Shown here one piece after another: positions 5,539-11,880 of a stretch of 41,262 nucleotides of DNA; position 1 is the stretch's first letter; each line of letters begins with the position of its first letter. The notes under the pieces were generated by a model. That model saw nothing but the letters and a program-made list of their open reading frames with translations, did not search any database and was not told where the DNA came from. A program made the translations under genes and the position numbers. Source of the stretch: an uncultured Algimonas sp. (GTDB taxonomy: Bacteria; Pseudomonadota; Alphaproteobacteria; Caulobacterales; Maricaulaceae); assembly GCA_937923575.1 (NCBI GenBank), contig CALDUL010000034.1:1-41262 (forward strand). The letters are read 5' to 3'.

Positions 5539-6963
5539 ATGACACTTCGTAACAAAGCTATCGCCGGCTTCATCAGCACGGCCATGATCGCGACGGCCTT
5601 GCCGCTCGTCGCTGCGACTTCCGCGCAAGCGCAAGTCAACTCCATCCCGCAACTGCTGCAGACGATCCGCAATGATTCGGCTGAGCAGGAGCGCATCAAC
5701 CGCCAGCGCGTGCAGGAATTCCAGGCCAACGCCTCGCAGCAGACCTCGTCGCTGAGCCAGGCGCGTGCCGAGCTTGCACGGATCGAGCAGCAGGCACGGT
5801 CGGTCGAGAACCGCTTCGCGTCCAACCAGCGTCAGATCGAATCGCTCAAGGGTGAGCTCACAGCCGCTCAGGGTGAGTTTGGCGAAGTCTTCGGTCTCGC
5901 CCGCTCCATGGCTGGTGAGTTCAAGTCCACGCTGGACCGCTCGCTGATCACCGCTCAATACCCGAACCGCACACAGGTTCTGGGTCGCGTCGCCAACTCC
6001 GACGCCCTGCCGTCCACCACGGATCTGAATGCGATCTGGGAAACCATGCTGCAGGAAATGCGCTCGCAGCGCGAAGTCGCGGAATTCGAAGCCAATGTCG
6101 CTGGCCTCGAAGGTCAGACCGGCGTGACACGCGTCGGCCCGTTCGTCGCTTTCACTCAGGGTGACGGCAACTTCCTGCAGTACAACCCGCCAACGGACAC
6201 AGGCGAAGGCCTGCCGCTGCTCTCGCTCCTGCCGGCTCAGCCAGGTGGTGCGATCCAGTCCGCGGCTCAGAACGTTCTGAACGCCACGCCAGGCAATGTC
6301 GTCTACGCGCCGATCGACCCGACACGGGGTGAGCTGCTCAAGACATTCGAACTGCAACCTGGGCCGATGGAACGTGCGCTCCAGGGTGGTGTGATCGGTC
6401 AGATCATCATGGGCCTCGGCGCCATCACGGCTATCCTCGGTATCCTGCTGATCATCCGTCTCTTCCTCGTCCGCATGGCGGTCGCCGGTCAGAAGCGCAA
6501 AGCGCAACCTGCCAAGGGCAACCCGCTGGGCCGCGTGATGATGGCCTATGAAGGCGCTCAGAATGCCGACACGGATACGGTCGAGCTGAAACTCGACGAA
6601 GCGATCCTGCAGGAAAGCCCGAAGCTCGAGTTCGGCCTGAACTTCATCAAGCTGATTGCCGGTATCGCACCGCTGCTCGGCCTGCTGGGTACCGTGACCG
6701 GTATGATCCAGACCTTCCAAGCCATGATGATCTATGGTGCCGGTGACCCGCAGCTGATGGCTGGCGGTATCTCGGTCGCCCTCGTGACAACCATGCTCGG
6801 CCTGATCGTCGCTATCCCGCTGCTGATCATCCACTCGCTCGCCGCTTCGCTGGCTCGCGGTGTGCAGAGCACGTTGGAAGAGCAGTCCGCCGGTATCGTG
6901 GCGCGCCACGTCGAAGCCCGCGGTGTGGGCACCGTCGGTGTCGCACCCGTCACCAACATCTAG
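5539..6963 (+). CDS. TtpC-like ExbB/TolQ-family protein with periplasmic extension
   Basis: A 474-residue protein combining a signal peptide (residues 1-32, ending ATSAQAQ), a periplasmic coiled-coil region (about 33-280) and a C-terminal MotA/TolQ/ExbB channel domain. Three membrane segments are visible: about 284-312, about 368-395 (IAPLLGLLGTVTGMIQTF, the family signature) and about 410-440. This architecture matches TtpC of the Vibrio TonB2 system, where it works together with a separate short ExbB. The next gene is that short ExbB. It probably takes part in coupling proton flow to TonB across the inner membrane. GGT, GCT and CGT codons look more frequent here than in the housekeeping genes further right, hinting at high expression. 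The symbol ttpC is not assigned because homology was judged by eye. Confidence 0.9.
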   Translation: MTLRNKAIAGFISTAMIATALPLVAATSAQAQVNSIPQLLQTIRNDSAEQERINRQRVQEFQANASQQTSSLSQARAELARIEQQARSVENRFASNQRQIESLKGELTAAQGEFGEVFGLARSMAGEFKSTLDRSLITAQYPNRTQVLGRVANSDALPSTTDLNAIWETMLQEMRSQREVAEFEANVAGLEGQTGVTRVGPFVAFTQGDGNFLQYNPPTDTGEGLPLLSLLPAQPGGAIQSAAQNVLNATPGNVVYAPIDPTRGELLKTFELQPGPMERALQGGVIGQIIMGLGAITAILGILLIIRLFLVRMAVAGQKRKAQPAKGNPLGRVMMAYEGAQNADTDTVELKLDEAILQESPKLEFGLNFIKLIAGIAPLLGLLGTVTGMIQTFQAMMIYGAGDPQLMAGGISVALVTTMLGLIVAIPLLIIHSLAASLARGVQSTLEEQSAGIVARHVEARGVGTVGVAPVTNI

Positions 6964-7063: not shown

Positions 7064-7591
7064 ATGGGCAATGTCATCGCAGGCCTTCAGGCCTTCCTGC
7101 AACAGGGTGGATGGGTTCTGATCCCGATCGCCGGCGTCATCTTCGTGATGTGGACGCTGATCCTGGAGCGCTTCGCTTACTACCTTCTCGCGCATAAGCC
7201 GATGAAAGCGCGGCTGCGCAATGAATGGAACGCCCGCGCGGACCGTTCGTCCTGGCGCGCACTCGCCATTCGCGACCAAATGGTCAGCCAGGTGAAGGAA
7301 CGCACCATCTCCAATGTTTCGATCATCAAGACGCTCGTGGCCCTCGCGCCGCTGCTGGGTCTGCTCGGAACCGTGACGGGCATGATCGGCGTGTTCGACG
7401 TGCTGGCCTACTCCGGCTCATCCTCCGCCCGCCTGATGGCTGGCGGCGTCTTCAAGGCGACGATCCCGACCATGGCTGGCATGATGGCCGCCCTGTCCGG
7501 TCTGTACTTCGCCACCGTCCTGCCGCGCTGGAGCGCGCGCGAAACCGCCCGCTTCGCCGACGAACTCGTCGTCGAGCGCGGTAGCTACTAG
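7064..7591 (+). CDS. exbB: ExbB proton-channel protein of the TonB motor
   Basis: Short ExbB of 175 residues, typical of TonB2-type systems. It has three membrane segments: about 13-42 (WVLIPIAGVIFVMWTLILER), about 90-118 (VALAPLLGLLGTVTGMIGVF, the channel signature) and about 127-155. ExbB forms the pentameric inner-membrane channel around an ExbD dimer and drives TonB with the proton gradient. It follows the TtpC-like gene by 100 bases and precedes exbD by 11 bases. The ATG at 7064 is preceded by AAGAGGAAAC, an acceptable ribosome site. Having both a long and a short ExbB is standard for this type of locus. Confidence 0.93.
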   Translation: MGNVIAGLQAFLQQGGWVLIPIAGVIFVMWTLILERFAYYLLAHKPMKARLRNEWNARADRSSWRALAIRDQMVSQVKERTISNVSIIKTLVALAPLLGLLGTVTGMIGVFDVLAYSGSSSARLMAGGVFKATIPTMAGMMAALSGLYFATVLPRWSARETARFADELVVERGSY

Positions 7592-7602: not shown

Positions 7603-8022
7603 ATGAGAAGAGCTCGCCGCAAGAATAATTCCGATGAGGGTGAAGTCGATATGACACCCATGTTGGACATCGTGTTCATCATGCTGATCTTCTTCATCGT
7701 GACGGCCGTCTTCCTCGACGAAAGCGGTCTCGATCTGACGCAGCCGCCACCACCGCCGGAAAACACACCTCCGCCGCCCAACAGCCCGCCAGCCATCACT
7801 GTCTATGTCGATGACAATAACAGCTGCTCGGTCGACGGTCTGCGGACGACATGCGACCGCGTGCTGGCCCGGGTCGAGCGTCAACTGGCTGACAAGCCGG
7901 GTGCATCGGTGATCCTGCGCTTCCACCCGAAGTCCAAGAACCGGGTTCTGATCCAATTGAAGGACGGCCTCGATAACAAGGGTCTGCAGAGCAAGATCGA
8001 AGTGCTGGAAGGCGCGGCATAA
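7603..8022 (+). CDS. exbD: ExbD, proline-rich variant
   Basis: A 139-residue ExbD with a basic cytoplasmic start, one membrane helix (about 19-40) beginning DMTPMLDIVFIMLIFFIVT with the conserved membrane Asp (residue 22), and a periplasmic domain. Two oddities stand out. The linker after the membrane helix is almost pure proline (PPPPPENTPPPPNSPP). The periplasmic domain carries two cysteines (NNSCSVDGLRTTCDRV), absent from the second ExbD. ExbD is the proton-carrying stator/rotor partner of ExbB. Eleven bases separate it from exbB, so the two are translationally close; a second exbD follows 124 bases later. GGAGCCCGG precedes the ATG. Confidence 0.92.
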   Translation: MRRARRKNNSDEGEVDMTPMLDIVFIMLIFFIVTAVFLDESGLDLTQPPPPPENTPPPPNSPPAITVYVDDNNSCSVDGLRTTCDRVLARVERQLADKPGASVILRFHPKSKNRVLIQLKDGLDNKGLQSKIEVLEGAA

Positions 8023-8146
8023 GAGCCGCGGCTCGGTGACGCTGGGCGGTCCTCGGTCCGCTCGACCGCCGGGCAAATTCCAGCTTCTCAACCTCTCTGC
8101 ACAAGACGCTTGCGACTCGCTGCAAGAAATGATATAAGGTAACACT
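8023..8146 (+). promoter_or_regulatory. Inter-exbD spacer with hairpins and a possible internal promoter
   Basis: The spacer begins with a perfect 12-bp palindrome GAGCCGCGGCTC (8023-8034). A second hairpin follows, GGCGGTC/GACCGCC (8045-8051 with 8064-8070). Further on, TTGCGA (8110-8115), 17 bases and TATAAG (8133-8138) form a plausible sigma70-type promoter just in front of exbD copy two. A transcript from it would start almost at the ATG. The hairpins lack U-tails, so they are more likely processing or stability elements than terminators. Confidence 0.3.
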
Positions 8147-8542
8147 ATGGGACGTCGTTCTAGAACAGTAGTCGAAGACGAGGGCACGGAGCTCAACATG
8201 ACTCCGATGCTGGATGTCGTTTTCATCCTGCTCATCTTCTTCATCGTGACCTCGGTCTTCGTGAAGACTCCGGGTCTTGAGCCCAACAAGCCGACGGCCG
8301 AAACCGATGTGGAATGGAATCCCACGATCCTCGTCGCGGTCGACAGCCAGTCCAAGGTCTGGATCGACAAGTCTCCTTATGATCTGGAGGAAATCCGTCC
8401 GATCCTGGTGGCGCTGCGGGACGAAACGCCCAAGGCGAATGCGATCATTCAGGCCGACCGCGATAGCGACGTCGGAACCGTCATGGGTGTGCAGCAATTG
8501 TTCCAGGACCTGGGTGTCACCACCCGCGTCGGTACCGAATAG
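8147..8542 (+). CDS. exbD: ExbD, second copy
   Basis: A 131-residue ExbD with the membrane helix ELNMTPMLDVVFILLIFFIVT (about residues 17-40) containing the essential membrane Asp (D23), and a compact periplasmic domain (about 50-131) without cysteines. It has neither the proline linker nor the Cys pair of the first copy. Two unequal ExbDs beside two ExbB-type proteins suggest either a heterodimer in one motor or alternative motors. AAGG at 8137-8140 is the only ribosome-site candidate. The tonB gene follows 104 bases downstream. Confidence 0.93.
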   Translation: MGRRSRTVVEDEGTELNMTPMLDVVFILLIFFIVTSVFVKTPGLEPNKPTAETDVEWNPTILVAVDSQSKVWIDKSPYDLEEIRPILVALRDETPKANAIIQADRDSDVGTVMGVQQLFQDLGVTTRVGTE

Positions 8543-8646: not shown

Positions 8647-9270
8647 ATGGGTGCTTTGCGCTGGCTTGCCGTTATTCCCGCAGCGATCGTCACGGTCCTG
8701 CTGTTCGTGCTGATGATGAGTTTGATTTCCGAGGAATTCAAACCTGAGGACAAGCTCGAGCTAAATGCCTTCGAGATCAACCCGAAGGTCGAGGATGTGC
8801 AGATCCTCGAGCGCGAGACGACCATCACCAAGATCCAGAAGATCGAAACGCCGCCGCCGCCGCCGCAAATCGAACGCGCCAAGGCCGATCGTCCGGCCGA
8901 GCCGATTTCCTCCATCGAGGGTGCCGTGCCTGAATTCGAAGCGCCGCAGATCGACCGTTCCGCCTTTAAGATCACGGTGTCTGACCGCGACGCACAGCCA
9001 CTCGTGCGTATTCCGCCACAGATGCCCCCGCGCGCCGAGAGGTCCGGCCACTGCCGCGTGAAGTTCAATGTGAGCCCCGAGGGCCAGCCCTTCGACGTCA
9101 CGGCGACCTACTGCTCGCAAAGCCTGTTCGAGCGTCCGTCCATCCGGTCGGTCCAGAAATGGAAATACAACCCGAAGATCCAGGACGGTCGTCCGGTCGG
9201 CCGGGTCGGCGTGGAGAGCAAGATCACCTTCCGTCTCGCCGATGAGCGCGGCAACATCATTCCCGAATAG
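8647..9270 (+). CDS. tonB: TonB energy transducer (short, TonB2-like)
   Basis: A 207-residue TonB. One N-terminal membrane anchor (about 6-26), then a short acidic and proline linker (PPPPPQIERAKADRPAEP), then the C-terminal TonB domain (about 120-200). TonB carries the force made by ExbB/ExbD to TonB-dependent receptors in the outer membrane. The length and the short linker match TonB2-type transducers rather than long TonB1. Two cysteines in the C-terminal domain (GHCRVKF and TYCSQSLF) are spaced to form a disulfide and are conserved in the second TonB at 11194. AGAGGAAGAAA precedes the ATG. Confidence 0.93.
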   Translation: MGALRWLAVIPAAIVTVLLFVLMMSLISEEFKPEDKLELNAFEINPKVEDVQILERETTITKIQKIETPPPPPQIERAKADRPAEPISSIEGAVPEFEAPQIDRSAFKITVSDRDAQPLVRIPPQMPPRAERSGHCRVKFNVSPEGQPFDVTATYCSQSLFERPSIRSVQKWKYNPKIQDGRPVGRVGVESKITFRLADERGNIIPE

Positions 9271-9505: not shown

Positions 9506-11032
9506 ATGATCTCGACATTGAAGAACAAGACAGCCTCGCTGCTCGGTGCCAGTTTTATGGCCTTGGCCGTCGTGGGTGTCGTCGCCCCGGCGACGATCGA
9601 CGTGGCTCATGCCCAGGACGAGGGACGTCAGTTCTCCGCCGACGCCGGTGAGAAGGTGAACGAAGCCCTGACACTGATGAATGCCAACAATCCGCAGGGC
9701 GCGATCAGCGTGCTGCAGAACCTCGTCGCGACCAAGACGGACCTCAATCCCTATGAGCGCTCGACGATCTACCAGATGCTGGGCCAGAACTACAACGATG
9801 TGGACAATGTCTCGCAAGCGCTGAGCTCGTTCCAGAACGCCATCAACGCCGGCGGTCTGCTGCCGAACGAAATCGGCAACATCCAGGTCGTGATTGCGCA
9901 GCTGATGATCGTGAACGGTCAGTACCGCGAAGGTGCAACGGCGCTGGAAAACTACATTGCGCAGTCCGGTCAGGAAAAGCCGAACTATGTCGATCTGCTC
10001 GTCCAGGCCTGGGTCGAGGCGGAAGATTACCGCCGCGCGCTCCCATGGGCGGAGAAGTGGTTCAACCGCGCCAGCCCGAAGGAGCGTAAGCACTTCGATC
10101 TGCTGAACTTCCTCTACAACAATCTCGGCATGCAGGGAAAGCAGGCCGATATCGTCAAGGAGATGATCCAGAAGTGGCCAGAGGACAACACGCTCTGGAA
10201 CAACTGGGCCTCCATGCTCGCCAATGGCGGGCGTGAACAGGACGCCTTCGAGGTCAACAAGATGCTCTATCTCGGCGGTGCGCTGACGACGGAGCCGGAA
10301 ATCAAGAAGGTCATCCAGTATTACTCCTTCTACGAAATGCCCTATCAGGCTGCGCAGATTCTCGAGCGCGAGATGAACAACGGTCGCGTGTCACGGACAC
10401 CGCAGAACCTCGAAGAGCTGTCGACCTATTACCGGACGGCGCGCGAGTATAAGAAAGCGATCCCGATTCTGGAACAGGCGGCTCAGCAGGCCAATACGGC
10501 CAAGCTCTATGCCGCGCTCGGCGAGGCTTATTACAACGAAGGCCAGTGCCAGCAATCTGAGGCTGCTTTCGGCAAGGCGATCGACCGCGGCTATGACGCG
10601 GGCAAATCCTGGATGCAGGTGGCCAACTGCCGCTATGACTCCACGCAAAGCGCGCCGCGCCTGGAATGCTCGGCATATGACTTCGAGAATTACGAGACCA
10701 AGAAGTCGGCCGTGAAGAGCGCAATCGCTCAGGCTCCGATCTCCAAGATCCGCGCCGATGCCGTGGCCGCTTTCAACAAGGTCCCGAGCGGTTCGCGCGA
10801 ATCGCGCAACGCCAAGAAGTGGATCAGCTTCGTGTCCAATGAGGAAGAAGCCTTTGTGAACCGCTGCCTGTTCGAGATCAATGTCGAGCGCGAGCTCTGC
10901 TACTCGAAGATCAAGCTGGCCTATGACAACCAGGCCTTCACCGGTGGCGATCTGAAAATCGATGACCCGGCGTGTCTCGAATATAAGGCGGATTACGACG
11001 CGAAATATGTGACGGTCACGACCAACCAGTAA
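9506..11032 (+). CDS. Periplasmic TPR protein of the TonB locus
   Basis: A 508-residue protein with a signal peptide (residues 1-36, ending DVAHAQ) followed by helical TPR-type repeats through about residue 390, for example ALTLMNANNPQGAISVLQNL, AGGLLPNEIGNIQVVIAQLM and AKLYAALGEAYYNEGQCQQS. A C-terminal segment of about 120 residues carries several Cys. TPR proteins of this kind close TonB2-type clusters (as in Shewanella and Vibrio relatives) and are thought to act as periplasmic scaffolds between the motor and outer-membrane receptors; this role is inferred. CAGGAGACACAAC is a good ribosome site before ATG 9506. A rho-independent terminator follows at 11073. Confidence 0.9.
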   Translation: MISTLKNKTASLLGASFMALAVVGVVAPATIDVAHAQDEGRQFSADAGEKVNEALTLMNANNPQGAISVLQNLVATKTDLNPYERSTIYQMLGQNYNDVDNVSQALSSFQNAINAGGLLPNEIGNIQVVIAQLMIVNGQYREGATALENYIAQSGQEKPNYVDLLVQAWVEAEDYRRALPWAEKWFNRASPKERKHFDLLNFLYNNLGMQGKQADIVKEMIQKWPEDNTLWNNWASMLANGGREQDAFEVNKMLYLGGALTTEPEIKKVIQYYSFYEMPYQAAQILEREMNNGRVSRTPQNLEELSTYYRTAREYKKAIPILEQAAQQANTAKLYAALGEAYYNEGQCQQSEAAFGKAIDRGYDAGKSWMQVANCRYDSTQSAPRLECSAYDFENYETKKSAVKSAIAQAPISKIRADAVAAFNKVPSGSRESRNAKKWISFVSNEEEAFVNRCLFEINVERELCYSKIKLAYDNQAFTGGDLKIDDPACLEYKADYDAKYVTVTTNQ

Positions 11033-11072
11033 GTCGCTCGCGGCTTCCAGGCCGCGCGGTTAAACGAAATGA

Positions 11073-11102
11073 CCCAGCTTCCTTCGGGGGGCTGGGTTTT
11101 TT
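11073..11102 (+). terminator. Rho-independent terminator of the TonB locus
   Basis: CCCAGC (11073-11078), loop, GCTGGG (11091-11096), then six T residues (11097-11102). It separates the TPR gene from the second tonB, so that gene needs its own promoter. Confidence 0.9.
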
Positions 11103-11123: not shown

Positions 11124-11146
11124 GAAAAGTGATAATATAACTTTTA
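11124..11146 (+). promoter_or_regulatory. Putative Zur box 1 upstream of second tonB
   Basis: Core GTGATAATATAAC flanked by GAAAA on the left and TTTTA on the right. Against the remembered gammaproteobacterial Zur consensus (GAAATGTTATA-N-TATAACATTTC) it matches 18 of the 22 defined positions, with the dyad centred at 11135. It lies just upstream of the likely -35 element of the second tonB. No experimental evidence; the consensus in this lineage may differ slightly. Confidence 0.6.
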
Positions 11147-11175
11147 TTGGCCGTCACAGTATGTTATTATATAAC
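11147..11175 (+). promoter_or_regulatory. Putative sigma70 promoter of second tonB
   Basis: TTGGCC (11147-11152), a 17-base spacer, then TATAAC (11170-11175). Transcription would start near 11182, directly at the GGAGG ribosome site, giving a very short leader. The -10 element lies inside Zur box 2. Confidence 0.5.
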
Positions 11176-11180
11176 TATAC
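11158..11180 (+). promoter_or_regulatory. Putative Zur box 2 over the -10 region
   Basis: ATGTTATTATATAAC (11161-11175) matches the central part of the Zur consensus (ATGTTAT-N3-ATAAC). With the flanks AGT and TATACT it forms an imperfect palindrome. The centre at 11169 is 34 bases from box 1, about three helix turns, which suits two dimers on one face. It overlaps the predicted -10 element, so zinc-loaded Zur would block transcription. Confidence 0.65.
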
Positions 11181-11193
11181 TGGAGGACCGAAT

Positions 11194-11880
11194 ATGAGTG
11201 ACATGCAACAGCGGCTGAACGGCCCAGACAAATCGGCGGGTCAAAATTCGGGACCTCTTACATTGGGGCGTCTGGCAGCCGGTATCGGCGCAGGCGCGGT
11301 GACGGCAGGGTTGTTCGTTCTCATGGCCGGGCTGATCCGCGAGGAGTTCCAGCCGGAGGACAAGCTGGAGCTCGCCCAATATGAGATCAATCCGCGCGTC
11401 GATGATATTGCGGTGCAGACCCGCACCATAACGATATCGAAGATGCCGAAGCTCGACATCCCGCCGCCGCCGCCCGTTGTCGAAATTCCTGCCACGACCC
11501 GACCCAGTGAGCCGATTGTCGACGTCACCGGCGCGAAGCCCGACTTTAAGCCGCAGAACATCGCTTTCAAACCGGTAACAATCGTGGAGACCGACCGCGA
11601 CGCGCAGCCTATCACGCGCATCCCGCCGCAAATGCCGCCGCGCGCCGACCGCTCCGGCCATTGCCTGATGCGCTTCAATGTGAGCGTCGAGGGTCAGCCC
11701 TATGACGTCGACGCCGTCTCCTGCAGCCAGTCGCTCTTCTCCGGAGCATCCATTCGTGCGGTGCAGGGCTGGCGCTATCGGCCAAAGATCCGCGACGGCC
11801 AACCGCGGCCCTATCTCGGCGTGGAGACTCGGATCAGCTTCCAACTCGCCGATGAGCGCGGCCGGATCATAGCCGAATAG
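11194..11880 (+). CDS. tonB: Second TonB energy transducer, probably zinc-regulated
   Basis: A 228-residue paralogue of the TonB at 8647. The C-terminal domains align closely (shared RIPPQMPPRA, SGHC, CSQSLF, LADERG), including both cysteines. It differs by an extra cytoplasmic N-terminus of about 25 residues before the membrane anchor (about 30-50) and a different linker (PPPPPVVEIPATTRPSEP). It lies behind the locus terminator and has its own promoter with two Zur-like boxes. It is therefore likely induced under zinc starvation and may plug into the ExbB/ExbD motor encoded upstream to energise zinc-related receptors. ATG 11194, preceded by TGGAGG, is preferred over ATG 11161, which lies inside the operator. 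Confidence 0.92.
   Translation: MSDMQQRLNGPDKSAGQNSGPLTLGRLAAGIGAGAVTAGLFVLMAGLIREEFQPEDKLELAQYEINPRVDDIAVQTRTITISKMPKLDIPPPPPVVEIPATTRPSEPIVDVTGAKPDFKPQNIAFKPVTIVETDRDAQPITRIPPQMPPRADRSGHCLMRFNVSVEGQPYDVDAVSCSQSLFSGASIRAVQGWRYRPKIRDGQPRPYLGVETRISFQLADERGRIIAE

Follow-up and report, generated by a model that had tools for sequence, protein, structure and literature searches.

In the window, i.e., the whole stretch of 41,262 nucleotides of an uncultured Algimonas sp. that was analysed, the second of two tonB genes (tonB2) is preceded by two palindromes which very probably are operators of Zur. Judged from the sequence, zinc-loaded Zur would repress tonB2, and zinc starvation would set the gene free. 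A paralogous tonB has Zur-type operators in front of it, with the exbB genes left in a general operon, and this arrangement is conserved in a marine group of the Caulobacterales. The gene tonB2 (11194..11880, forward strand) encodes a product of 228 amino acids matching the Pfam model TonB_C (PF03544, 1.9e-9) and no NCBIfam model, and has a Shine-Dalgarno sequence, GGAGG, at 11182-11186. In an alignment, the protein revealed a proline stretch, a hydrophobic N-terminus (the membrane helix was judged by eye) and a C-terminal TonB domain. The following gene lies on the opposite strand and encodes a DUF2336 protein. Upstream, on the same strand as tonB2, are exbB1 with a long N-terminal extension (5539..6963) and exbB2 (7064..7591; both Pfam MotA_ExbB), exbD1 (7603..8022) and exbD2 (8147..8542; both Pfam ExbD), tonB1 (8647..9270; Pfam TonB_C), which has no box in front of it, and a gene for a TPR-repeat protein (9506..11032; of the Pfam TPR models matched, TPR_14 alone exceeded its cut-off). 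The latter is followed by a predicted intrinsic terminator on the forward strand (11071..11098), a 12-pair stem and a T run, which splits the upstream genes from tonB2.

Two dyads centred 34 bp apart had originally been noted at tonB2, and both were recovered at that spacing: box A (GTGATAATATAAC) at 11129-11141 and box B (GTTATTATATAAC) at 11163-11175, neither assigned to a strand, with centres at 11135 and 11169. The palindrome type GTTA-N5-TAAC is matched exactly by box B and with one mismatch by box A. Box B sits within a longer palindrome, ATGTTATTATATAAC (11161-11175), in which a longer tonB2 reading frame starting at the ATG at 11161 would begin. The likely -10 region TATAAC (11170..11175, forward strand) is located inside box B. 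The likely -35 region TTGGCC (11147..11152, forward strand), read by eye 17 bp away from TATAAC, is downstream of box A. This pair was absent from the list of the promoter scan, which gave GTCACA-17-TATACT (ending at 11181) and ATGACG-16-GATAAT (ending at 11136). The assertion that box B covers the only plausible promoter was therefore too strong in the word "only", even though box B does overlap TATAAC and abuts the alternative -10 region TATACT (11176-11181, forward strand).

How far such sites might arise by chance was estimated in several ways. The pattern RTKATNNNATMAY, composed with both tonB2 sites already in view, matched the window twice, exactly at boxes A and B, at an expectation of 0.24; at least two matches occurred in three of 100 shuffles. 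As an independent matrix we used four Caulobacter boxes that are given as predicted upstream of Zur-regulated genes (PMC4176598). By this matrix no other site of the window equalled boxes A and B, which scored 18.3 (the maximum) and 14.25; the one after them had 10.1. In random sequence of the window's base composition 0.028 sites scoring at least 14.25 are expected per window. The exact sequence GTTATNNNATAAC is present at two sites of the 2.58-Mb assembly, one of them being box B. The other site (C118:15601) precedes a gene for a protein with only a sub-cut-off match to DUF1570. A loose form of the motif showed no clear excess over a reversed-pattern control in the own assembly (15 versus 13 and 10 versus 13 sites), and its counts were likewise not above the control in three of five relatives. 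Because the loose motif behaves like its control, the case for the boxes rests on their position and their conservation.

Conservation was studied in two sets, which overlap and are not independent of each other. The set with linked tonB genes consisted of 23 genomes (the window plus 20 plus 2 stretches), all but the window picked for two close tonB matches; 4 of 26 stretches of relatives (L168-L171) possessed one tonB only and were excluded. The best site in 360 bp around each tonB start was scored against dinucleotide shuffles. With the Caulobacter matrix, a box was found at the second tonB in all 23 genomes at p<0.05 (18 of them at p<0.01) and at the first tonB, the control, in none. For the second set 80 of 85 loci were kept and split by eye. 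Group A comprises 46 loci (L204-L248, L263) with at least 54% identity to tonB1, from Hellea, Algimonas, Litorimonas, Robiginitomaculum and uncultured relatives; the remaining 34 loci belong to Maricaulis, Oceanicaulis and others, including some MAGs titled Robiginitomaculum. All 24 second tonB genes of group A had a box at p<0.05, 21 of them at p<0.01, compared to 0/46 first tonB genes. In 22 of the 46 loci the stretch examined, in some cases ended by a contig end, contained no second tonB. Outside group A, 4/24 second and 1/33 first tonB genes reached p<0.05 (one locus offered too little upstream DNA), and a score of at least 11 was attained by the second tonB of L270 and L275 only. These two loci exhibit near-abutting Zur-type boxes before the second tonB.

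The arrangement of the boxes varies among the relatives. In G048, whose tonB2 (L058) shares 77-79% identity with that of the window, two boxes occur with the same 34-bp spacing, and box B (GTTACAGAATAAC) coincides letter for letter with the box predicted at znuM in C. crescentus. Abutting 13-mer boxes were found in L070, L071, L076 and L077, one of which belongs to Litorimonas, and single boxes elsewhere. The tonB2 box arrangement is also present in records titled Litorimonas cladophorae, Algimonas arctica, Hellea balneolensis and Robiginitomaculum antarcticum, so cultured strains usable for tests are among its carriers.

In front of exbB1 and tonB1 the Caulobacter matrix disclosed no strong box, the best site before exbB1 scoring 6.9. 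A weak related site, GATATAAGGTAAC (8131..8143, no strand assigned), which ranks third in the window, lies just before exbD2, and 12 of the 17 relatives' loci scored have GTRATAAGGTAAC at the corresponding position. The region upstream of exbD2 reached p<0.05 in 10/17 loci with the Caulobacter matrix and in 11/17 with a tonB2 matrix, a signal that stems from one near-fixed sequence (GTAATAAGGTAAC) abutting the start codon. It may be a weak Zur site, or only a -10 region plus ribosome-binding sequence. The constitutive expression ascribed to the upstream motor is an inference: exbB1 and tonB1 have no strong box in front of them, but the weak site at 8131-8143 precedes exbD2.

The suggestion to look for the same boxes upstream of TonB-dependent receptors was borne out for one ZnuD-like receptor operon. 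A site with one mismatch (C12:9965, L007) heads this operon, which encodes a small protein with His residues together with a TonB-dependent receptor that includes an acidic stretch containing His. A fragment of this receptor (379 residues) matched ZnuD with 222.7 bits, at a whole-protein cut-off of 950, and the next model with 63.3. Matches to the ZnuD-like receptor were obtained in 18/18 genomes searched, and among 17 parsed genomes a box preceded its operon at p<0.05 in 13, the receptor operon being the only one scored in this test; among the 13, the own genome and G045 were first noticed via the motif. In L007 and L091 the small protein with the His-containing segment is encoded between the box and the receptor gene. 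The boxes anticipated at znuABC did not materialize, since none of the 18 genomes gave a match to ZnuA (PF01297); of 14 control genomes, 11 did. Outer-membrane zinc capture may weigh more in these 18 genomes. Five genomes, the own one (box at L012:1501-1513) plus G005, G045, G046 and G059 (loci of the relatives L081, L082, L088 and L092), also have a Zur-type box just before the start of a gene for a CDF exporter, the own exporter being FieF-like; these loci were selected by the motif itself.

Regarding the regulator, the genome encodes two members of the Fur family. The L001 protein was best matched by Fur (105 bits; Zur 35), whereas the L002 protein was best matched by the NCBIfam model for Zur (112.5 bits, below the model's cut-off of 167; Fur 30), and its nearest solved structure is E. 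coli Zur (4mtd, 98.9 bits; best Fur-named structure 30). The genome thus contains a zur gene, as the original prediction demanded. Zur orthologues were found in 111/136 genomes of the family. Of the 23 genomes bearing the box, 20 have one, and the three exceptions (G006, G048 and G100) are 70-76% complete. Autoregulation of zur was also considered and discarded, since no box lies upstream of the own zur and only 2 of 29 scored zur loci, whose starts were estimated, reached p<=0.01. Expression of tonB genes is often under the control of Fur, and with L001 a Fur-like protein is at hand, by which tonB2 could be a TonB for iron starvation. The consensus of Fur is a 7-1-7 box, and by our own reading box A holds TGATAAT, one half of it. 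Yet the Fur consensus fitted 1/25 tonB2 promoters at p<0.05, compared to 23/25 for the Zur consensus, the best match to a 7-1-7 box in the tonB2 promoter of the window was 8/14 (p 1.0), and one box of G048 is identical to a Caulobacter Zur box. We therefore rejected control of tonB2 by Fur and consider it very improbable that the boxes are Fur sites. A similarly slight chance is given to the idea that the palindromes are merely AT-rich promoter sequences, conserved for a sigma factor without any repressor. It gains from the overlap of box B with the -10 region and from the loose-motif counts, and the fixed sequence before exbD2 demonstrates that promoter or ribosome-site sequences can mimic the motif. 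The regions upstream of tonB1 (0/23) and exbD1 (2/17) are devoid of the palindrome signal, though, box A is situated upstream of the likely -35 region, and substitutions among the relatives preserve the dyad; in L070 and L076, for example, two perfect boxes abut each other. Binding by Zur remains by far the best account of the two boxes. In the presence of zinc, one Zur dimer would occupy box B over the -10 region of tonB2 and a second one would take box A, next to the -35 region on its upstream side, by which tonB2 would be turned off; when zinc falls, Zur would leave and TonB2 would be made.

Once released, TonB2 would power receptors for zinc, one candidate being the ZnuD-like protein, since the same box recurs at its operon. 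Alternatively, Zur may control a TonB2 that serves receptors generally and just tops up the TonB supply, in line with the common TonB_C domain it retains; we rate this reading as less likely than not, though by no means remote. It is somewhat weakened by the faster divergence of tonB2. In a protein tree of 13 tonB2 and 11 tonB1 products, end branches measured 0.7-1.96 in 9/13 of the former and at most 0.25 in 11/11 of the latter, which fits narrowed partners but equally a relaxed constraint. A single origin of tonB2 was not supported by this tree, which needs three label changes and is made unsure by its long branches.

The motor partners of TonB2 were sought by searching seven genomes for PF01618. 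Each of the seven encodes both ExbBs of the operon plus a single TolQ-like protein, and in G005, G014 and G098 there was no match beyond these. TolQ was above the NCBIfam cut-off in all three genomes tested (G000, G014 and G046), and G046 additionally encodes MotA. The own genome (G000) and three of the same genus (G045, G046 and G059) possess an extra protein of the ExbB/MotA family (261-269 amino acids), for which NCBIfam gave merely a trace MotA match in one genome; G045 and G059 also yielded a short partial PF01618 match. Its gene (L308:1399-2214, G000:C1:67360; in relatives L306, L307 and L309) lies in a cluster of its own beside an ORF of about 330 amino acids, and no box precedes it in the four genomes (p 0.19-0.32). 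None of the ExbBs of the seven genomes had a Zur-type box to itself, and an ExbB dedicated to TonB2 was dismissed on this ground. For the same reason, and because no exbB lies beside tonB2, TonB2 most likely joins the ExbB of the adjacent upstream operon, which it probably borrows. In G005, G014 and G098, which are complete genomes, TonB2 could choose only between the operon ExbB and TolQ. The own genome, G045, G046 and G059 also offer the extra protein, so that TonB2 need not rely on the upstream ExbB there, although in the own genome the latter is the more probable partner.

The original prediction had TonB2 use the ExbB/ExbD motor encoded just upstream. For ExbB this agrees with the search; for ExbD, an unlinked third gene, exbD3 (L078:4556-4954, equal to G000:C8:11558-11953), calls for a revision. 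It stands alone beside serS and is preceded by 12-bp inverted arms, GTGTTATATTAT and ATAATATAACAC, of the Zur-box type. Of 24 unlinked exbD loci, chosen by eye from a list, the Caulobacter matrix placed 13 and the tonB2 matrix 16 at p<0.05; for the linked exbD1 it was 2/17 and 1/17, respectively. For exbD3 of the own genome the two matrices gave borderline p values of 0.060 and 0.042. The exbD3 neighbourhood varies among the genomes, while AT-rich dyads, as judged by eye, persist. Since this unlinked gene bears similar, weaker boxes, ExbD may be swapped as well as TonB, and TonB2 would perhaps act together with a Zur-controlled ExbD3. In its full form, Zur would release TonB2 and ExbD3, and these would take the places of TonB1 and ExbD1/2 around an unchanged ExbB ring, so that a zinc-specific machine arises from an exchange of parts and no second motor has to be built. 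We put this forward tentatively and find it rather doubtful, its chances being slightly lowered by the extra ExbB/MotA-family protein in the four genomes of the genus. If the proposed Zur control of tonB2 is true, the group offers a test of whether a TonB motor acquires its cargo preference through an exchange of TonB, perhaps along with ExbD, on a common ExbB.

Among the papers listed in searches on the group or on a Zur-controlled second tonB, none, as far as titles and the starts of abstracts go, describes this arrangement. The design is no one-off: all the second tonB genes detected in group A share the box, and Acinetobacter has a complete Zur-controlled Ton system. In A. baumannii the promoter of the tonB belonging to TonB1-ExbB1-ExbD1 is reported to contain a Zur-binding consensus, this tonB is up 4- to 5-fold under zinc chelation, and the predicted Zur targets include ZnuD receptors (PMC3516566). 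The boxes described here are of the same GTTA-N5-TAAC type as those of the C. crescentus Zur regulon, to which the TonB-dependent receptors znuK, znuL and znuM belong (PMC4176598), and in our control genome search Caulobacter likewise gave no ZnuA match. Unlike in the Algimonas group, neither tonB nor exbD is in Table 1 of that report, which holds the genes altered in a zur mutant (PMC4176598). The boxed CDF exporter gene of the own genome and four relatives, a candidate Zur target, recalls Xanthomonas czcD, a CDF exporter gene described as Zur-linked (PMC6103462). Acinetobacter tonB, exbB and exbD are presented as one putative Zur-regulated operon (PMC3516566; PMC6103462), a dedicated set in which exbB and exbD are cotranscribed with tonB. 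By comparison, tonB2 has no exbB and exbD of this kind and stands alone, the adjacent exbB, exbD and tonB1 genes are without a strong box, and the third exbD is located elsewhere. The arrangement is probably a variant of the Acinetobacter scheme, in which one, perhaps two, Zur-controlled subunits would work on a shared ExbB.
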